From an uncultured Bacteroidales bacterium (GTDB lineage Bacteria; Bacteroidota; Bacteroidia; Bacteroidales; Bacteroidaceae), in assembly GCA_902763885.1 (NCBI GenBank), contig CACWTU010000004.1, positions 1 through 64,000 on the forward strand: a stretch of DNA of 64,000 nucleotides, written 5' to 3'. Position 1 is the stretch's first letter, and each line of letters starts with the position of its first letter. The notes under the pieces were generated by a model. That model saw only the letters and a program-made list of their open reading frames with translations, was not told the origin of the DNA and made no database searches. Below, in pieces: positions 5,308-32,533 of this stretch. A program made the position numbers and the translations under genes.

Positions 5308-5877
5308 TTATTTGTTATTCAACCAATTATTAATTATTATCTTACCTTGGGGAGTCAGTACGCTCTCGGGATGGAACTGAATTCCGCGTACATCGTACTC
5401 GCGGTGTCTCAAGGACATGATATAACCGTCATCGCTGCGGCTGGTCACCTCAAGGCACTGCGGAAGGTCCTTGTCATCGACCACCCACGAGTGGTAACGC
5501 CCTACCTCAAGGTCCGATGCAAGACCCTCAAACAGATAATCCTGTGCCGTGAGATGTGCCGGAGTAGCCACTCCGTGTACCACATTACCTATATTGAGCA
5601 ACTTGGCACCGAATGCTTCGCCAATGGCCTGATGTCCCAGGCAGATGCCTAAGATGGGCTTGCGTCCTGCATACGCCTTGATAACCTGAGGCATAAGACC
5701 TGCCTCGCTGGGAATTCCGGGACCCGGTGACAGGACAATCTTGTCAAACTGCTCCAGATCCTCAATGCGGAACATGTCGTTACGCACTACGGTCACATCG
5801 GCCCCGAGCTCCTTAAGCAGGTGGCTCAGGTTGTATGTGAATGAGTCATAATTGTCTATTATTACGGTCTTTATCAT
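5308..5877 (-). CDS. trpG: Anthranilate synthase glutamine amidotransferase component
   Basis: A 189-residue class I glutamine amidotransferase that hydrolyses glutamine and channels ammonia to TrpE. The triad is complete: C79 in GICLGHQ, with H169 and E171 in QFHPESV. The PGPG oxyanion loop lies at about 51-54. It could also serve para-aminobenzoate synthesis as PabA, but its place inside the trp operon supports TrpG as the main role. Its start overlaps the trpE stop by four bases (ATGA). Confidence 0.95.
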   Translation of the reverse strand: MIKTVIIDNYDSFTYNLSHLLKELGADVTVVRNDMFRIEDLEQFDKIVLSPGPGIPSEAGLMPQVIKAYAGRKPILGICLGHQAIGEAFGAKLLNIGNVVHGVATPAHLTAQDYLFEGLASDLEVGRYHSWVVDDKDLPQCLEVTSRSDDGYIMSLRHREYDVRGIQFHPESVLTPQGKIIINNWLNNK

Positions 5878-23272: not shown

Positions 23273-24046
23273 TTATCTTGCGTTATTCTTTTTGCTTGTC
23301 ACTTCAAGTACGCCATTGGCTCCCCTGTTACCCCATTTTTTCGTTGCCGCTGTATTCGTAAGAATTGAGATGTTTTTTATTTGATCAGACTCTATACCTA
23401 GTAATTCGGCCACTTTATCTTTGGAGAAGGAGTCAGTGGTAAAATCAAAATCATTAAGCTTGTCTCTATCCAAATTCATCACGTTACCATCTAGTATAAT
23501 TAACGGATTTCCGTCTTGTGGGTATTGAGGACCGTATGCACGGGCGCGCATCCCCTGATACCTGTCTTCACGGATAATAAGGGGGACTGCAGCTTTAAGG
23601 ATACTGTCAATTTCATTGTTTATCAGTAAGGTGTCAACGACCAATGTTACCTCCATAGCATTGCCGGTAAACTCACTTACGGCTGTATGGTATCCTAAAT
23701 TGATTATCTCCAGACGGTCAGCCGGATCTACGAGTTTAAAACTGAAGTTTCCGTCAATATCAGTGATGGCATGAGCTACAAGGCGGTTTTCGGAATCCTT
23801 CTCCTCGACACGCGCCATCATCATCGGCCCTTCGGAATTGCAAACACGACCTGTTATCATGTCACCAGCAGCCGGTTTGGGGCCTGAAACCTCTACCTTT
23901 GAACGGGAATTGTTTATGCTGGCAGAATCAGATACCGTCTGGGCATTGGATTTGACAGACAGCAATGAGAATACAAACAATGACACACTGTACAGCACGT
24001 TTCTCCAGCCACGTGACAAAATGATCCTAAAGGTTCTGAATTTCAT
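23273..24046 (-). CDS. Carboxypeptidase-regulatory-like plus TonB-plug-only protein
   Basis: About 257 residues, with a long signal peptide (VLYSVSLFVFSLLSVKSNAQT). A CarboxypepD_reg-like domain follows (TGRVCNSEGPMMM...GNFSFKLV), then a short stretch resembling the plug of SusC receptors (PLIILDGNVMN...ISILTNTAATKKWGNRGANGVLEVTSK). No beta barrel follows, so it cannot be a channel. Such plug-only proteins occur in Bacteroidetes; this may be a signalling or scaffold protein, or a relic of a receptor. The start at 24046 is preferred to 24070 because it shortens the n-region. Confidence 0.75.
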   Translation of the reverse strand: MKFRTFRIILSRGWRNVLYSVSLFVFSLLSVKSNAQTVSDSASINNSRSKVEVSGPKPAAGDMITGRVCNSEGPMMMARVEEKDSENRLVAHAITDIDGNFSFKLVDPADRLEIINLGYHTAVSEFTGNAMEVTLVVDTLLINNEIDSILKAAVPLIIREDRYQGMRARAYGPQYPQDGNPLIILDGNVMNLDRDKLNDFDFTTDSFSKDKVAELLGIESDQIKNISILTNTAATKKWGNRGANGVLEVTSKKNNAR

Positions 24047-24125
24047 ACTCTTGGCGTTTACGATGCTCAAAAGTACTTGTCAAATCAACAAAAGACAAGG
24101 ATCAGGCGCTGCAAATCTGTTGCAA

Positions 24126-24194
24126 TTGACCCAAAAGGGACAGTCCCCCTGTGCCATGCGAGATGACACAGGGGGACTGTCCCTTTTGAGTCAA
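24126..24194. repeat. Long palindrome at pncB stop
   Basis: 28-bp arms (about 24126-24153 and 24167-24194) match at 27 positions around a 13-base loop, with AAAAGGGACAGTCCCCC at their core. The right arm contains the pncB stop codon. It belongs to the GGGG/CCCC palindrome group and may terminate pncB. Confidence 0.75.
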
Positions 24195-25390
24195 ATCAAG
24201 CCCAGTATGACTTTGTAAGAATGAACCTCATCGGGATCGCCAAGCTCCTTGCCCGGGGTGTCGGACAGCTTTACGCAGCGATAGACGTGCTGGCGGGGGT
24301 TGACCTGGAAGGTCTTGAGTTTCATTACGATGTTCAGGGGCGTTACCGTACCTACATCGTTTGTGAGGTTGGTGCCGATACCGAACGATACCCTGATACG
24401 TCCCTCGAAATACTTCTGGATGGCCAGAGCGCGGTCAAAATCAAGCGCATCACTGAACACGATTGACTTTGTCATGGGGTCTATGTGGTATGACTCGTAT
24501 TTGGCAATGATCTTGTCGCCGAACTCGAACGGATCACCGCTATCGTGACGTACGCCATCGTACAGCTTGGCCATATCGAGCGAGAAGTTACGCAGGAACA
24601 CACGTGTGGTGAAGCAGTCAGGCAGCATGGTACCCATATTGCCGCCGTAGATCTCTGCCCAGTGGCGCATCACGTAGTAGTTTGCCTCCTTGGGGCCCAT
24701 GAATGCGGCCGTAGCCATCATAAGCTCATGTGCCATGGTGCCTATCGGCTTAAGGTCCGGACGGATGGACTGGTATTTCATTGCAAAATAGACAGTTGAT
24801 GAGCCGATGAAATACTTGGCGTGACGTGCCAGATACTCGGTTACATGAGCCTCAACCTCATGTGAATAGCGGCGGCGCATACCGAAGTTGGCAAACTTGA
24901 GCTTGTTATCATTTGATATGGCAACTTTCTTCTCAAGCTGGCTGTCTATGAATGCCCAATCCGGCTCAGTCTTCTCATAGGTACGATAATATACCTCCGA
25001 TACGGTACTCAGGATGGGAATTTCATAAAGGGTAACCTTATAGATAAGGTCTGTAGCCTCTATGTGCAGGTGTCCCTCATCATCCAGTGAGATCTGGATG
25101 ATATCGGGGTTGAACCTGAATCCCATGAGCCACTCAAAGTAGCACTGGGGTATGAAATAGATATTATCATGGCACCAACGGAATTCCTCCTCCGTCAGGG
25201 CAAGCGTGGACAATTTCCTGAACTCGCTTTTGAGAAGGTCCACAAACTCTTGGGTGAACTTCTGGCCATTGCGGTCAGTGAAACTGAACGTACCTATCCC
25301 TTCAGGGGTTGTACGCTGGTAATAGTATGACATCGAGAACTTGTAGAGATCGTTCTCAAGCATACTTATTACAGTGGTGCCATTATCCAT
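24191..25390 (-). CDS. pncB: Nicotinate phosphoribosyltransferase
   Basis: A 399-residue enzyme joining nicotinate to PRPP to form nicotinate mononucleotide in NAD salvage. The phosphorylatable His sits in LYDGVRHDSGDPFEFG, and the FGIGTNLTND loop lies in the barrel. Full length for the PncB family. It follows the nicotinamidase gene by seven bases, so the two salvage steps are co-transcribed. The stop codon lies inside a long palindrome. Confidence 0.95.
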   Translation of the reverse strand: MDNGTTVISMLENDLYKFSMSYYYQRTTPEGIGTFSFTDRNGQKFTQEFVDLLKSEFRKLSTLALTEEEFRWCHDNIYFIPQCYFEWLMGFRFNPDIIQISLDDEGHLHIEATDLIYKVTLYEIPILSTVSEVYYRTYEKTEPDWAFIDSQLEKKVAISNDNKLKFANFGMRRRYSHEVEAHVTEYLARHAKYFIGSSTVYFAMKYQSIRPDLKPIGTMAHELMMATAAFMGPKEANYYVMRHWAEIYGGNMGTMLPDCFTTRVFLRNFSLDMAKLYDGVRHDSGDPFEFGDKIIAKYESYHIDPMTKSIVFSDALDFDRALAIQKYFEGRIRVSFGIGTNLTNDVGTVTPLNIVMKLKTFQVNPRQHVYRCVKLSDTPGKELGDPDEVHSYKVILGLI

Positions 25391-25397
25391 AATATCC

Positions 25398-26036
25398 TTA
25401 TTTATAAATCTTTATGTTATTCTCGTTCATGTAGGCAACCAGCGGATCAACTGTCTCTATGCTGGCTACGCCCTCCAAATATACAGAGAGCTCAAAACCT
25501 ACCTCCTTGCTCAGGCGAACCAGATTCTTGAGAGTCTCAAGAACGCAGTACTCGGCAGCGATACCGCATACAACAACGTTATCACCCTTTACAAAGAGAT
25601 CCTGGTCATCGGCCTTAGTGTTCTCAAACTGACCGTACTCCTCCTTGTCCTGAGCCTGGCCCTTGGGCAGGAAACGTACGTTATTAATATCCAGGTTATC
25701 CAGAATGCCGTCAGGCAGAGCTGCACCTACAGTGTAGCGTACGCAGTGCTGCGGCCAGATTCCTCCGTTAGCCTTGAATGAACAGTGGTTCCATGGGTGC
25801 CAGTCAAGGGTAAAATAAACCTTGTCAAATTTGGTAAGAACACTCTTTACGGGCTCCACAACACGGGTTCCGTCAGTAGCGGGCAGGTTGCCGTCAATGA
25901 AATCCTTCTGGAGGTCAACCACTACCATAATGTTTGCGGGTTCACGGTCTGTCATAACTTTCTGTGTCTTTTTTCCTGTGCAAGCTACCATAGTCATAAC
26001 CATGGTTGCAGCTGCAAAAAACTTTAATACTTTCAT
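25398..26036 (-). CDS. pncA: Nicotinamidase with lipoprotein signal peptide
   Basis: A 212-residue isochorismatase-fold enzyme deamidating nicotinamide to nicotinate. The triad is D41 (VVVDLQKDF), K125 (FLPKGQ) and C164 (AAEYCVLET); the metal site uses D78, H80 and H84 (TLDWHPWNH). Unusually, the N-terminus MKVLKFFAAATMVMTMVAC is a lipoprotein signal with Cys19, so the enzyme should be in the periplasm or outer membrane, while PncB is cytoplasmic. The start at 26036 gives a cleaner signal than the one at 26054. The pair form an operon. Confidence 0.9.
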   Translation of the reverse strand: MKVLKFFAAATMVMTMVACTGKKTQKVMTDREPANIMVVVDLQKDFIDGNLPATDGTRVVEPVKSVLTKFDKVYFTLDWHPWNHCSFKANGGIWPQHCVRYTVGAALPDGILDNLDINNVRFLPKGQAQDKEEYGQFENTKADDQDLFVKGDNVVVCGIAAEYCVLETLKNLVRLSKEVGFELSVYLEGVASIETVDPLVAYMNENNIKIYK

Positions 26037-26067
26037 TTCAATAACAAATAACAATCATTTCAGTGTG

Positions 26068-26133: not shown

Positions 26134-27045
26134 ATGACACTTGTAGGTATTCTGTTTCTGATTATTGCGACCATCTGCGCCGCAATGTTCTCCATCTCAT
26201 TCAAGATATTCCAACGTTTCAACATAGACTCCCATCAGGCCATATTCTTCAACTATATGACCGCGTTCATACTGGGAGTCTTATTCTCGCTCAATGGTGA
26301 GATAGTGGTCAACCCCATAAAGGCCGATTGGTTTATCCCGGTAATCTTCCTCGGGCTGATTTTTATGGCCGGAATGGTGGTTCTCTCCGACTCCACCCGC
26401 CGTGTAGGTGTTGCAATATCAACGGTTTGCAGCCGTGCATCGATGGTAATACCCATAATCGTCACGTTCCTGTTGATTGAAGGCAGCGCCAAGCCCAAGT
26501 GGCTTATCATTGCCCTTGTATTGGTTGCCATGAGTATGACCATATGGAAAGGCAAGTCCGATGGTGCCGGCCACAAGCTGTCTCTGCGCGACATACTGGC
26601 TCCCGTAACCGTTTTCCTGTCATTTGGTTTGAGCAATTCGGCCATGAAGGTTCTCCAGTATCATATCACCACATCCAACGCCGGACGCCCTGAGCACGAG
26701 ATAAACAGCGAGATATCACTTGCTACGGCTGGGATATTCTTCTTTGCAATGCTCATTTGCAGCTATTCGTTCTTTAAAAAGGGTCCCGATGGTAAGAGAG
26801 TTCCGGTATCATTTAAAAATATTCTAGGAGGCGCTTCACTGGGTGTAATAAACTATGGTTGTACATACACCCTGATGCTTTCCATGAAGACAATTGACTC
26901 CTCACTCCTGTTCCCCATCCATAACATCGGAATTGTAGCCATTGGAGCTATTGTAGGCTGGTTGGCATACGGTGAAAAACTAAGACCGCACCAAGTACTT
27001 GGTATCGTACTCGCTGCGGTCTCAATAGCATTACTCTGTATCTAA
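26134..27045 (+). CDS. EamA/DMT-family transporter
   Basis: A 303-residue integral membrane protein with ten predicted hydrophobic helices arranged as two EamA-type halves. The second half begins near ILAPVTVFLSFGLSNSAMKVL. Drug/metabolite transporters of this kind export or import small molecules; the substrate cannot be read from sequence. It is divergent from the pnc genes, a weak hint of a pyridine link. Its stop is inside an 18-bp-arm palindrome shared with the converging receptor gene. Confidence 0.85.
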   Translation: MTLVGILFLIIATICAAMFSISFKIFQRFNIDSHQAIFFNYMTAFILGVLFSLNGEIVVNPIKADWFIPVIFLGLIFMAGMVVLSDSTRRVGVAISTVCSRASMVIPIIVTFLLIEGSAKPKWLIIALVLVAMSMTIWKGKSDGAGHKLSLRDILAPVTVFLSFGLSNSAMKVLQYHITTSNAGRPEHEINSEISLATAGIFFFAMLICSYSFFKKGPDGKRVPVSFKNILGGASLGVINYGCTYTLMLSMKTIDSSLLFPIHNIGIVAIGAIVGWLAYGEKLRPHQVLGIVLAAVSIALLCI

Positions 27046-27084
27046 AAAAGTACAATTGGGGTCAGGCCCCAATTGTACTTTTTT
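27044..27084. terminator. Bidirectional terminator palindrome between convergent genes
   Basis: 18-bp perfect arms (27044-27061, 27067-27084) with A- and T-runs at both ends overlap the EamA stop (27043-27045) and the receptor stop (27083-27085). It matches the GGGG/CCCC palindrome group (core ACAATTGGGG). Confidence 0.8.
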
Positions 27085-30000
27085 AGTCGAAAATCAGTTT
27101 TATTCCCAGCTGGAGGTACCAGCAGTTGGTGTTGGATTTATCCATATCGAAGGTCTTGGAAACAAGGCCTTCTTTGTTTGTGGCCATCGTGAACTGCGGA
27201 CGTCCCTCTGCATCCAATATAGGCTTACCCTGATTGTCTGCATACATAGTCAGAATCTTGCCGTTGTTGCAGGCTGCAGGAGTCTGCATGACGCCCCAGC
27301 TGCTATTGAGCAGGTTGCCTACGTTCATGATATCCAGAGAGAGCTGGAGGGTCTCGTTGCTGCGTTTGGAGCCTCTCAGTGCAGCTATGTTGAAGTTCTG
27401 GGCCAGATGCAGGTCAAAACGGTTGAGCCAAGGCATGCGGGCAGCGTTTGCATCGGCATACTCACCCTTATGGCTGCTCAGATAACCGTCCTGGTTTACA
27501 AAGTCCCAGAAAGCCTGCTGCTGTGCCTCTGCGGTGATTGAACCATTGGCCACGAACCTGATATCCTCCTTGTTTGCAGGGATCCAGATCAGGTCATTGG
27601 CGATACCGTCACCATTCATGTCATTTGTATAGGTGTAGCTGTAAGTGCCTGCCGAATAACCAGTGTAGAACAGACCTGCCTCAGTGCTCATGAACCTGTT
27701 TCTGGAGTATCCGAATCGGTATGTTACCATTGCCGAAACCTTATCGGGAATGACATAGGCCGACGGACGCAGAACCAGTTCGTTGGGGCTGTTTACGTTG
27801 GGAGTATTGCCCCATGCGGAATTCAGTGCAGATCCCTTCATATCCTGAACCGACATGGAGACCTGGTGTATGTATGAAATCTCCGTCTTAAGGTTGTTTA
27901 CAGGCTCAGCCTTTAGGGTTGCTCCTAATGACCAGCTGTATCCCTTGTCGGTGTTGCTTATGACCATTGCACCACCCGATTTTGAAACGGTAGAATTTAC
28001 AGGAGCTACAGTGTTGTAGTTAAATCTATTATCGGCACCATTAAAGCGCGATGCGGCATTTTCGTCCGGAAGATTGTAGTTCTCTATATACACAGCATTG
28101 ATATCCTTGTTGTAGATACCCTCAACCGATACTGTCAACGGAAATGCCAGGTCTGGCTCATAATCAAATGCAAGAGAGGTCTTGAATACCTGCGGAAGCT
28201 TGAAGTCACTCTCGATACCAGTTATTGAAGCGCCTTTGAGGACAGGATTGGGGTTGGCGGTCATGGGAAGTCCTTGCTGCTGAATATAGTTCCTAAGTGA
28301 TGACTCCGTGTAGAGGAAATTGTTCTTAAGCCCGTTCAGGAAAGCGTCACCCTCATTAGTGAACATTACAGTGTTCTGCAACATGCCGCTGCTGTTGGGG
28401 ATTGTGGCAAAAAACACCAATGGGATCCTACCTGTGAACAGACCGGCACCGCCGTGCATTTTAAGGGTGCGCTCGTCATTGATATCCCAGTTGAATCCTA
28501 TGCGCGGTGATATCTGGATGTTTGATTTCGGCCATTTGCCGTTGTCAATAACAGGTGAACTGTAATCGGCAGGAGCCTGTCCGGGTGCGTAGAAATGACC
28601 GGTCCAGTCAAGAGCCTTGAAAGACTCGTTGGTTTCAAGAGGTTCATAGTACTGCATATGGTCTGCTCTGAGTCCATAAGTCAATGTAAACTTGTCAGTT
28701 ATGTGTGACTCAGCCTGTAGGAATGCAGCCGTCTGACCGAATGATGTACGTGATGCGGGATCATCAACTCCGTCATAGGTGTAGGTCATACCGAATGCCG
28801 CCGGTGCTGCCTGGTTTACGAAATCCTCAAGTGAATTGTATCGGTAGTAGCTTGTGCCGTACATGCGGTAGTTGGTGGCGCCCTTCTGGTACTGATAGCT
28901 CAAACCCGCCGTAATGGTGCTGTGAGCCAGTGTCCAGCGTATATGATCACTCATATTATATGTACGTACATAGTTTCCGGTACCGTTGGTGAACAGTTCG
29001 TAACCGGCACTCATAAATGCATCCCCGTCCTTGCGGATGTCAATATGTGGAAACCAATCCGATTCCGACCCGCGCAGATTACTTACGTCCGATACGCTGG
29101 CAGAGAATTTATTGCTCATCTTTCCGCTCAGACGGCTGTTCAATTCAGCTACAGCTGACCATGCGTTGTCATTGATGGTATAGCAGTTGTTCAGGAATAC
29201 GTATGAATTCTTTGATATACGCTCTGATGCAGCCTTGGCTCCCACTGTACTTCTTGCATTGGGAGCGCTCCACTGCTTGTTGCCGGTCCAGTTGTAACGC
29301 AACATCAGGTTGTGGTTGTTATTGATGTTCCAGTCCAGACGAGCCAGAACCTTGGTATTGGTCTGGTCGCCGTTGGTAAGGTCATAACCACCGGCATCGT
29401 AGCCGTAAGCCTTGAGGGCAGTTGCGAACTGCTCCATATCGGCAGCCGTTACGCGGCTCACCTTTGAAGCATCATCTCCTACTCCGTCATCAGAGAGCTT
29501 GTACTCGGTTATTGGACCGGGAGTTGTAACATATTCAGCATTGACAAAAAAGAACAATTTATCCTTAACGATAGGGCCGCCCAACGTTAATCCTACCGTA
29601 GTTTTACTGTTGCTTACCCTATCGCCCAGGTCTATGCCGTCAATTGTATTGCCACGCATCTTCTCGTTATGGAAGTATGAGTATGCAGTTGCCTTAAGTG
29701 TGTTTGTTCCGGATTTGGTGATGACGTTTATACCGCCGCCGGTAAAGTTACTCTGACGCACATCGTATGGTGCAATGGCCACCTGCATCTCTTCAACCGC
29801 ATCGATGGATATAGGTGTACCTGCTCCGGGAAGGTCGGCAGAGAGACCGAAACTGTTATTCATAACAGCGCCGTCAATGGTAAGCGTGGTACCGCGGCCG
29901 TCACGCCCTGCCATAGCATTCTCAATGCCGCTGTAAGGCGACAGACGGGTGTAATCCAACATGCTGCGGTTAACTGACGGCAGCAGCGCCATGCTCTCAC

Positions 30001-30529
30001 GGTTCAGGTTGTATGTCTGGCCGGTACGTGTCTCATTGAAATGTGTGCTCTCACCGCGTATGGTAACGACCGGAATACTCAGCGCCTCCTCCTTAAGTAT
30101 CACATTGAAATTGTAATCCTTACCCATAGAGAGCACTACGTTGTCATAAGCCACATCCTGATAACCCAGGAACGACACCGTCACCAGATACTTGCCGGGC
30201 TTAAGTCCCGACAGAGAGAATACGCCGTACTTATTGGCTACAGCGCCATAGAAAGCGCCCGTCTCATTGTTTGTAACTACAACGGATGCTGCCTGGAGAG
30301 GCTCACCCTCGGAATCTTTCACTGTACCGCTTATGGATGCGGTAGTGTTCTGTGCCGATGCACCCACGCTGGCAAACAACAACACGCATAGGCACACAAA
30401 CCTGATGAGTCTGAATGACATACTGCCGGCCATAGCCGAAAAACTGAACTCGGATGTCTCATTCACGCCCTTGGCACAAATGAGTTTTGCAGGCGCGATA
30501 ACACCTGACAGGACTGTTTTGATACTCAT
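27083..30529 (-). CDS. TonB-dependent receptor under FMN riboswitch control (candidate flavin receptor)
   Basis: An Oar-like outer-membrane receptor of about 1148 residues. After a signal peptide (MSFRLIRFVCLCVLLFASV...ASAQ) come a carboxypeptidase-regulatory-like domain (ASISGTVKDSEGEPLQAAS...GYQD), a plug domain (LTIDGAVMNNSFGL...GGINVITKSGTN), and a large beta barrel ending in LGIKLIFD. An FMN aptamer (30530-30642) directly precedes the ATG at 30529, which has GGGAG eight bases upstream. That start puts 36 extra residues before the signal peptide; an alternative start at 30421 removes them but lacks a ribosome site. Control by FMN points to flavin uptake; this is inference. Confidence 0.85.
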   Translation of the reverse strand: MSIKTVLSGVIAPAKLICAKGVNETSEFSFSAMAGSMSFRLIRFVCLCVLLFASVGASAQNTTASISGTVKDSEGEPLQAASVVVTNNETGAFYGAVANKYGVFSLSGLKPGKYLVTVSFLGYQDVAYDNVVLSMGKDYNFNVILKEEALSIPVVTIRGESTHFNETRTGQTYNLNRESMALLPSVNRSMLDYTRLSPYSGIENAMAGRDGRGTTLTIDGAVMNNSFGLSADLPGAGTPISIDAVEEMQVAIAPYDVRQSNFTGGGINVITKSGTNTLKATAYSYFHNEKMRGNTIDGIDLGDRVSNSKTTVGLTLGGPIVKDKLFFFVNAEYVTTPGPITEYKLSDDGVGDDASKVSRVTAADMEQFATALKAYGYDAGGYDLTNGDQTNTKVLARLDWNINNNHNLMLRYNWTGNKQWSAPNARSTVGAKAASERISKNSYVFLNNCYTINDNAWSAVAELNSRLSGKMSNKFSASVSDVSNLRGSESDWFPHIDIRKDGDAFMSAGYELFTNGTGNYVRTYNMSDHIRWTLAHSTITAGLSYQYQKGATNYRMYGTSYYRYNSLEDFVNQAAPAAFGMTYTYDGVDDPASRTSFGQTAAFLQAESHITDKFTLTYGLRADHMQYYEPLETNESFKALDWTGHFYAPGQAPADYSSPVIDNGKWPKSNIQISPRIGFNWDINDERTLKMHGGAGLFTGRIPLVFFATIPNSSGMLQNTVMFTNEGDAFLNGLKNNFLYTESSLRNYIQQQGLPMTANPNPVLKGASITGIESDFKLPQVFKTSLAFDYEPDLAFPLTVSVEGIYNKDINAVYIENYNLPDENAASRFNGADNRFNYNTVAPVNSTVSKSGGAMVISNTDKGYSWSLGATLKAEPVNNLKTEISYIHQVSMSVQDMKGSALNSAWGNTPNVNSPNELVLRPSAYVIPDKVSAMVTYRFGYSRNRFMSTEAGLFYTGYSAGTYSYTYTNDMNGDGIANDLIWIPANKEDIRFVANGSITAEAQQQAFWDFVNQDGYLSSHKGEYADANAARMPWLNRFDLHLAQNFNIAALRGSKRSNETLQLSLDIMNVGNLLNSSWGVMQTPAACNNGKILTMYADNQGKPILDAEGRPQFTMATNKEGLVSKTFDMDKSNTNCWYLQLGIKLIFD

Positions 30530-30642
30530 AAATTCTTCTCCCATCCAGACTATACTGTCGGTACCGTAATCGCAACGGTTCAACCTTTCGGCTCGCGGAC
30601 TCTACCGCCGGTCGGGGAATTGCGCCCCACCCTGAAAAATTT
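30530..30642 (-). promoter_or_regulatory. FMN riboswitch (RFN element)
   Basis: The minus strand carries the RFN landmarks in order: AGGGTGGGGCGCAATTCCCC, GACCGGCGGTAGAGTCCGCG, CGATTACGGTACCGACAG and TAGTCTGGATGGGAGAAGAA. The closing stem P1 pairs AAATTTTTC (30634-30642) with GAAGAATTT (30530-30538), nine pairs. The 3' strand of P1 touches the ATG at 30529 and holds the ribosome site, so FMN binding should block translation of the receptor. Confidence 0.95.
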
Positions 30643-30710
30643 CGACTGCAAATTTCCGCTTTCTAGATGACTCCAGCAAGCATTTTATGCTAAAAAAGGT
30701 AAAGTTTAAA

Positions 30711-30778: not shown

Positions 30779-32533
30779 TCATTTTACATCAACCTTGAGC
30801 TGAAGCTCATCAAGCTGGGACTGATCCAGAGGACCGGGGGCATCCAGCATGACGTCGCGACCTGAGTTGTTCTTGGGGAATGCGATGCAGTCACGGATGC
30901 TGTCCAGGCCTGCAAAGATGCTTACAAAGCGGTCAAGACCGAATGCCAAACCACCGTGAGGAGGTGCACCGAACTTGAAGGCGTTCATCAGGAAGCCGAA
31001 TTTGGCCTGAGCCTGCTCCGGTGTAAAGCCTAAGATCTTGAATATTGTAGCCTGAAGCTTGCTGTCATGGATACGGATAGAGCCACCACCAACCTCGATA
31101 CCGTTAATAACCATATCATATGCATTGGCGCGAACACTTGCGGGATCGGTATCAAGCAGAGGAACATCCTCAGGTTTGGGGCTAGTGAACGGATGGTGCA
31201 TAGCCATGAGACGGTTCTCCTCATCACTCCACTCGTACATCGGGAAATCAATAACCCAAAGGCATTTGAACTGGTTCTTGTTGCGAAGACCCAACTCGTC
31301 GGCAACCTTGAGGCGTAATTCGGATAGCTGTTTGCGCGTTTTCATTGCGTCATCACCGCTCAGAATCAGTATAAGGTCACCGGCCTCAGCGTTCATGGCA
31401 GCCTTAAGCTGCTGTAGAACCTCCTGACTGTAGAATTTGTCAACGCTTGATTTTACAGAGCCGTCAGCCTCAACGCGAGCGTAAACCATACCCTTGGCAC
31501 CTATCTGAGGACGCTTTACATACTCAGTAAGAGCATCAATCTGCTTGCGTGTATATGTAGCCGCACCCTTTGCACAGATACCGCCTATGTATGCGGCACT
31601 GTCAAATACGCCGAATCCGTAGCCCTTGAGCACATCCATGAGCTCTACAAAGTGCATGTCAAAGCGCAGGTCAGGTTTATCACTGCCGTAGTATTTCATT
31701 GCATCCTGCCAGGTCATACGCTGGAAGGGCTCCTTGAAATCAATGCCAAGAATGCTCTTGAACAGGTGCTTGGCCATAGCCTCAAATATCTGGAGTATAT
31801 CCTCCTGCTCCACAAATGACATCTCGCAGTCAATTTGGGTGAATTCAGGCTGACGGTCGGCACGCAGGTCCTCGTCACGGAAGCACTTGGCTATCTGGAA
31901 GTAACGGTCAAAACCTGATACCATAAGCAACTGCTTAAGGATCTGGGGGCTCTGAGGCAGAGCATAGAACTGACCGGGATTCATGCGTGAAGGAACCACA
32001 AAGTCACGAGCACCCTCAGGGGTTGAGTTGATAAGAATAGGAGTCTCAACCTCCATAAAGTTCAGGTCATCCAGGAATTTGCGTATCTCCATAACCATCT
32101 TGTGGCGCAGCTCAAGGTTCTTGCGTACACACTGGCGGCGCAGGTCAAGATAGCGGTATTTCATACGCAGGTCATCACCGCCGTCGGTCTCATCCTCAAT
32201 GGTAAAGGGAGGCGTATCGGCAGCATTGATAACGTTCAGATTATCAACCAGTATCTCTATATCACCTGTAGGGATCTTGGAGTTCTTGCTTGAACGCTCG
32301 CTTACCTTTCCGGTCACCTGGATAACGTACTCGCGTCCCAGACGGCTGGCCTGCTCGCAAAGTGCGGCATTGGTAGCATCGTCAAATACAAGTTGGGTTA
32401 TGCCGTAGCGGTCACGCAGGTCAACAAAGACCATTCCACCCATTTTCCTTACTCTCTGCACCCATCCGGCCAGCGTAACAACAGTGCCGGCATCGGTTAG
32501 GCGTAACTCTCCACAAGTTTTTGATCTGAACAT
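30779..32533 (-). CDS. aspS: Aspartyl-tRNA synthetase
   Basis: A 584-residue class IIb enzyme charging tRNA-Asp. The N-terminal OB fold ([18 protein letters not shown]) binds the anticodon. The catalytic core has the QSPQ flipping loop, motif 2 [18 protein letters not shown] and motif 3 GLDRFVS. The GAD insertion domain (about 290-410) is present, so this is the bacterial long form. It is a single gene with a -7 box at 32559. Confidence 0.97.

Follow-up and report, generated by a model that had tools for sequence, protein, structure and literature searches.

An FMN riboswitch before a TonB-dependent receptor points to candidate outer-membrane flavin import in predicted riboflavin-auxotrophic Bacteroidales

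Riboswitches that bind flavin mononucleotide (FMN) control the riboflavin transporters RibU, PnuX/RibM, ImpX, RibN, RibXY, RfuABCD, RibZ and RibV, as listed in the available excerpts of PMC4418817. The FMN targets named in the excerpts of PMC4418817, PMC3766115 and PMC6593275 are carriers, permeases and binding proteins, with no outer-membrane receptor among them; the excerpted part of PMC3766115 also reports the absence of FMN regulons from Bacteroidaceae. Outer-membrane receptors under cofactor riboswitches are described for vitamin B12 and thiamine pyrophosphate, with btuB and omr as the controlled genes (PMC2211319, excerpt). Here, we describe an FMN riboswitch directly in front of an Oar-like TonB-dependent receptor gene in an uncultured Bacteroidales bacterium of the family Bacteroidaceae (assembly GCA_902763885.1). 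The DNA analyzed spans positions 1 to 64,000 of contig CACWTU010000004.1, and this whole stretch of 64,000 nucleotides (nt) is called the window in the following. As in the known FMN-controlled riboflavin transporters, the FMN aptamer precedes a predicted importer gene, here in a predicted auxotroph. As in the btuB and omr systems, a cofactor riboswitch precedes a TonB-dependent receptor, but the ligand here is FMN. In the open-access literature that we searched, outside of which lie most subscription journals and bioRxiv, we found neither an outer-membrane receptor reported to be controlled by an FMN riboswitch nor a receptor described as dedicated to carrying flavins across the outer membrane. 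The recurrence of a receptor behind the aptamer across apparent vitamin B2 auxotrophs suggests that flavins pass the outer membrane by a route not yet described.

The initial annotation of this region had proposed a full FMN aptamer (RFN element) ahead of an Oar-like receptor and not of rib genes, and had suggested running the FMN covariance model over it. This search (cmscan, RF00050) returned a match on the reverse strand at 30529–30643 that spans the whole model (positions 1–138 of 138) with 104.5 bits against a gathering score of 66.2 and an E-value of 3.3e-23. It is the only FMN match in the genome (G000). The mechanically called frame, 27083–30583, begins with a TTG that falls inside the aptamer, and the ATG at 30529–30527 is the likelier start. 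Its A is the final base of the aptamer match, and with this start aptamer and start codon therefore touch. The receptor then comprises 1148 amino acids (27083–30529, reverse strand) and matches the Pfam domains CarboxypepD_reg, OMP_b-brl_4 (146.4 bits) and TonB_dep_Rec_b-barrel (32.4 bits) above their cut-offs; the label "Oar" is one that we presume to fit. Judged from these matches, it is close to certain that an FMN riboswitch precedes the receptor. A few bases upstream of the aptamer lies a TTTGC element (30648–30652, reverse strand), which is promoter-like and of the Bacteroidota −7 type.

This arrangement recurs throughout the genus, for which we compiled 37 genomes, 8 of them with a completeness of 90% or more and a contamination of 5% or less. 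An FMN aptamer was found in 26 of the 37, in all 26 above the cut-off. The start ATG begins 10–13 nt past the conserved GGATG of the aptamer at 26/26 loci, and TTTGC or TTTGT occurs at most 40 nt upstream of the aptamer at 24 of the 26, a raw count without a background rate. The gene behind the aptamer encodes the Oar-like receptor in 21 cases, the window included (that of G221 lies in two parts on separate contigs), and a different, smaller receptor, called type-7 in the following, in the other five (G024, G119, G215, G217 and G225). Such recurrence is more than would be expected by chance. Where the flanks could be read, both kinds of receptor usually occupy one locus, behind aspS or before an EamA gene. 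Strong matches to type-7 were obtained in 5/37 genomes and to the Oar-like receptor in 31/37, to both in none and to neither only in G220. The genus offers an example of a riboswitch that stays in place while its receptor gene is exchanged. The 13 named loci closest to the window receptor (82–99% identity) carry the titles Bacteroidales, Bacteroidaceae or Prevotellaceae, and several of these titles mention ruminant stomach.

The expectation that orthologues of the receptor are likewise preceded by an RFN element held in part. It was borne out for 21 of the 28 congeneric Oar genes with readable upstream DNA and failed for the other seven, as it did for all 18 more distant Oar-like loci (38–43% identity) in an Rfam scan for the FMN aptamer. 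Altogether, 10 of the 31 Oar genes of the genus lack an FMN match; in three genomes (G201, G207, G216) the gene start lies off the contig, and no match was found in the scanned upstream DNA of the remaining seven (G214, G213, G206, G070, G210, G050, G088). A tree of aspS, built for dating the receptor exchange, was noisy and badly rooted, with its three type-7 genomes scattered, and was discarded as too weak a guide to the order of events. In G225 (L058), the type-7 receptor was matched in two pieces in separate open frames and may be interrupted or misassembled.

Searching the same 37 genomes for flavin biosynthesis, we found lumazine synthase (ribH, PF00885) and dihydroxybutanone phosphate (DHBP) synthase (ribB, PF00926) each in 0/37, with 14/14 controls positive. 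Flavokinase (PF01687) was detected in 36/37, the miss being G216 (79% complete), with 10/14 controls positive. Because both synthases are absent and flavokinase is retained, the genus is predicted from its gene content to be auxotrophic for riboflavin and to need preformed flavin.

We then looked at the family (201 genomes) and at the order Bacteroidales (393 genomes, 311 of them ribH-positive). FMN sites occur in 15 genomes of the family sample, 13 before a receptor and two before ribBA-ribH (G054, G106); ribH is absent from all 13 receptor-site genomes and present in both rib-site genomes. One genus, g2, contains both kinds (G001 and G031 with a receptor, G054 and G106 with rib genes). In the order sample, 84 genomes gave an FMN match, 83 of them over the cut-off. 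The first gene downstream of each site was classified by blastx against a reference set, excluding the window's own site (n = 84), and the ribH states of these genomes were read from the table by eye. Synthesis genes follow 45 sites (32 ribD, 13 ribBA), all in ribH-positive genomes. A type-7 homologue follows 37 sites, of which 36 belong to ribH-negative genomes; the 37 include the site of G509, where the aptamer is partial, lies at the start of a contig and stays below the cut-off. One site, in the ribH-negative G372, lies directly before an Oar-like receptor, and one (G487) runs off its contig. Thus, 37/38 receptor sites are in ribH-negative genomes, and Fisher's exact test of FMN target versus ribH state gives 7e-23, the sites not being independent. 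The receptor state extends over 16 families and 23 genera, the synthesis state over 22 families, and both are found within the genera g146, g38 and g105. Receptors also close FMN-controlled rib operons in three prototrophs (G498, G553, G403). In g105, the FMN-rib stretch of G403 ends with a receptor gene whose product is 91% identical, over the 598 residues available, to the second of the receptors that follow the FMN site in the ribH-negative G300; this suggests that the target swap can arise by loss of the rib genes between aptamer and receptor. This near-clean swap of FMN targets between synthesis genes and receptors makes the question of flavin import directly testable, and the FMN-receptor arrangement gives a marker by which vitamin B2 auxotrophs may be recognized among uncultured Bacteroidales. 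In three genomes, ribH seemed to contain TGA codons; in the two read in frame (G495, G406) TGA is the ordinary stop, and the third had been translated out of frame.

How FMN could act on the receptor gene is suggested by RNA folding. The closing helix P1 of the window aptamer pairs the bases beside the start codon: GAAGAAUUU, just before the AUG, is paired within P1 with an unpaired probability of 0.00–0.14, and is freed once the folded sequence omits the 5′ strand of P1 (0.67–0.96). As GAAGAAUUU is held in P1 and the promoter-like TTTGC lies only a few bases upstream of the aptamer, translational control by P1 itself is the simplest reading of these models, and the aptamer seems to double as the expression platform. 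A hairpin within the first codons (30490–30507, reverse strand), common to type-7 and Oar-like loci, is probably part of this platform as well. Across 22 distinct rows, 98.1% of its cells are paired and 20 cells are changed on both sides; none of 500 shuffles scored as high for either, and 33 of 500 did for the number of pairs so changed. Among 11 close sequences, the hairpin codons (8–15) contain 28 synonymous and no nonsynonymous differences. Over the whole leader in which they lie, the counts are 102 and 183, and from both comparisons the RNA seems to be kept more than the peptide.

This leader (30425–30529, reverse strand) consists of about 35 extra codons ahead of the signal peptide and resembles the 5′ coding end of type-7. 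It is found in most FMN-linked Oar genes of the genus, with G189 as an exception, and its frame is open in 21/21 loci as far as the sequence extends. The seven FMN-less congeneric Oar genes lack it and begin with an ordinary-looking signal peptide. Comparing the first 62 nt with the type-7 gene of G024, we obtained p = 0.004 for the window, the floor of 0.002 for six of the ten leaders compared and 0.024 for G212, with no significant resemblance for G208 and G189; three starts of FMN-less Oar genes resembled none of the five type-7 genes. We read this as a regulatory graft, by which the riboswitch and the first type-7 codons came to precede the Oar gene.

The sequences show the aptamer, its contact with the AUG, the auxotrophy by gene content, the recurrence and the receptor exchange. 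On these grounds, we consider it likely that a riboflavin-auxotrophic member of the Bacteroidales takes up flavin (as riboflavin, FMN or FAD, flavin adenine dinucleotide) via a TonB-dependent receptor that is shut off by FMN. Transcription would start near the 5′ end of the aptamer. With ample FMN, P1 would form and bury GAAGAAUUU touching the AUG, so that translation is blocked; with little FMN, GAAGAAUUU would be free and the receptor made. The flavin would then cross the outer membrane at the expense of TonB energy, reach an inner-membrane carrier and be converted to FMN and FAD by flavokinase (RibF). The receptor would thus stand in for the lost flavin biosynthesis, with type-7 and Oar-like receptors alternating behind one riboswitch at one locus within the genus. 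The suggestion made at the outset, which makes the window receptor a candidate for FMN-controlled flavin import through the outer membrane, is backed at the level of gene content by a genus without ribH and ribB but with flavokinase, by the order-wide split along ribH and by the receptors that end rib operons. Flavin import is well supported by these patterns for the type-7 family, and probable, with less certainty, for the Oar-like receptor of the window.

The further genes behind the FMN sites bear on the cargo. Among the 38 receptor loci of the order sample, an Oar-like receptor follows type-7 in six, a second plug-type receptor is present in five, and a type I phosphodiesterase/nucleotide pyrophosphatase in seven, plus one fragment. 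The pyrophosphatase matches PF01663 at 1.5e-88 and the solved ENPP1 at 4e-76. Such pyrophosphatases can split FAD. It was found in 8/35 long FMN-receptor loci versus 0/24 long FMN-rib loci, in none of 24 loci of non-FMN type-7 homologues, and in 4 of 65 other Oar loci, three of these four in the Oar clade of the window (L080, where it lies upstream on the other strand, and the Prevotella loci L082 and L083, where it directly follows the Oar gene). Its presence is a hint that the cargo of some lineages may be flavin nucleotides. A nucleoside permease (TIGR00889) follows type-7 in a single locus, L211.

In a type-7 tree computed by a quick method with a midpoint root, the 24 non-FMN homologues form one starred clade (99) apart from most FMN-linked receptors; the FMN-linked first receptors of L209 and L261 and five second receptors side with it. 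For the Oar tree we used 100 of 116 rows, after removal of 12 named duplicates and of 4 rows that were short or partial. Here, the window genus groups with the switch-less Oars of Bacteroides, Prevotella and Parabacteroides. A starred clade apart from these unites one rib-operon Oar with five of the six tandem FMN Oars, and L214 stands alone. Beyond the window genus, Oar-like receptors are thus under FMN control behind type-7 (6 loci), directly behind the aptamer (G372) and at the ends of rib operons (G498, G553). Since these FMN-linked Oars sit in separate branches, Oar-like receptors appear to have come under FMN control on at least three occasions, which supports a flavin link for them.

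The same trees bear on the strongest alternative, in which recombination set the riboswitch and the type-7 leader before an unrelated Oar-like receptor; only type-7 would then import flavin, the window receptor would have another substrate and its FMN control would be a by-product. The likeness of the leader to type-7, the Oar genes retained beside aspS in FMN-less congeners and the aptamer-less Oars of the same clade all speak for this event. The latter, in Bacteroides, Prevotella and Parabacteroides (L080–L094), are full-length homologues of the window receptor with 38–43% identity; they have no FMN aptamer, and L080, L084 and L086, the three starts examined, have no leader. Yet the graft has been retained in 21 genomes together with a covarying hairpin, none of these 21 auxotrophs has a full-length type-7 elsewhere, and Oar-like receptors came under FMN control in other lineages also, so that we regard a mere by-product as unlikely.

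The protein itself was compared with solved structures and described families. The AlphaFold2 model of the window receptor (23 sequences) reached a mean pLDDT (predicted local distance difference test) of 74.8 and a pTM (predicted TM-score) of 0.72, and its top Foldseek matches were FusA and YddB, with query-normalised TM-scores of 0.48 and 0.49; PqqU and BtuB ranked lower. The plug domain PF07715 was not reported for the protein at an E-value of 0.001, and the Oar-like receptor of L219 reached 23.7 bits against a cut-off of 23.9; in Foldseek, the window model aligns over about 1000–1100 columns to plugged receptors. PqqU (PDB 9c4o, solved with the redox cofactor pyrroloquinoline quinone) appeared at rank 15 with an E-value of 6e-20 and 10–11% identity in the fold alignment, to which the window receptor adds an N-terminal CarboxypepD_reg and a longer barrel region. 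The receptor families also differ from that of btuB: in NCBIfam, type-7 has only weak local matches and the Oar-like receptor none. A sequence search of the PDB gave no match for type-7 and for the window receptor only one short match, to a designed protein.

The closest solved folds are TonB-dependent receptors for iron sources and others. Together with iron-riboflavin cross-talk, described in the excerpted text of PMC6041382, this would fit a receptor for some other compound wanted at flavin shortage, such as an iron compound, haem or a peptide, with FMN as a redox or iron signal. The tie to ribH loss and the receptors at the ends of rib operons point instead to flavin itself, and this explanation appears improbable. 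That the aptamer is the decayed remnant of a rib operon or type-7 gene, with no control left over the receptor, as its loss in some congeners and P1 mismatches seen by eye in several loci could suggest, is more improbable still, given 26/26 genus aptamers over the cut-off, the near-constant spacing to the ATG and the covarying hairpin behind it.

Several observations nevertheless weigh against flavin import by the window receptor or against the wider pattern. The seven FMN-less congeners, auxotrophs as well, retain the Oar gene without the switch, and G220, a predicted auxotroph of 86% completeness, has neither receptor nor an FMN aptamer. Homologues from the window's Oar clade occur in genomes with riboflavin synthesis, and G054 combines FMN-ribBA and ribH with an Oar-like gene lacking an aptamer. 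By the Oar tree, the tandem FMN Oars are not orthologous to that of the window, and the pyrophosphatase was found in 0/28 loci of the window's own genus. G439 (L261) is the only ribH-positive genome with a receptor site in the order sample; it has two FMN sites, one before ribD and another that is followed by a short receptor frame with a full one behind it and by a nucleotide pyrophosphatase. The excess of nonsynonymous differences over the whole leader, the fact that the named relatives are mostly metagenome assemblies, and the lack of an identified inner-membrane flavin carrier, for which no search of the genome aimed at carriers was made, belong here too.

Weighing both sides, we lean toward the view that Bacteroidales have an undescribed outer-membrane flavin import controlled by FMN riboswitches. 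Its core would be type-7, at times joined by a second or Oar-like receptor and a pyrophosphatase that may split FAD, taking the place of the rib operon behind the aptamer where biosynthesis was lost. In the window genus, the receptor would have been exchanged with riboswitch, start codon and coding hairpin kept, and the new receptor would therefore bear the 5′ coding end of the old one as its leader.

Looking at the neighbors of the receptor gene, the upstream flank is aspS (30779–32533, reverse strand; Pfam tRNA-synt_2), which is the same neighbor in many congeners with or without the aptamer. Downstream, an EamA-type transporter gene (26134–27045, forward strand; Pfam EamA) converges on the receptor gene. 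We considered it as the inner-membrane partner and dropped the idea as unsupported, since the EamA gene also flanks loci without an aptamer. Further downstream, at 24191–26054 on the reverse strand, lie genes for a nicotinamidase-like protein (isochorismatase fold) and a nicotinate phosphoribosyltransferase, which recur beside the locus in congeners; genes for the salvage of nicotinamide adenine dinucleotide thus adjoin the putative flavin salvage locus. They are followed by a gene for a 265-amino acid protein (23273–24070, reverse strand) whose only match, to CarboxypepD_reg, is weak and falls short of the curated cut-off; a barrel was not matched.

Other regulatory RNAs were seen near the Oar homologues. 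SAM-II riboswitches are present in 5/13 scanned loci, at L085 3858–3917, L089 2774–2833, L087 9475–9541, L091 1041–1100 and L135 205–263; those of L085 and L089 are on the strand opposite to the Oar gene, no more than about 150 nt away from it. A small RNA of the FopS family (RF04319) is located at 5351–5426 on the forward strand of L080, about 220 nt behind the Parabacteroides Oar homologue.

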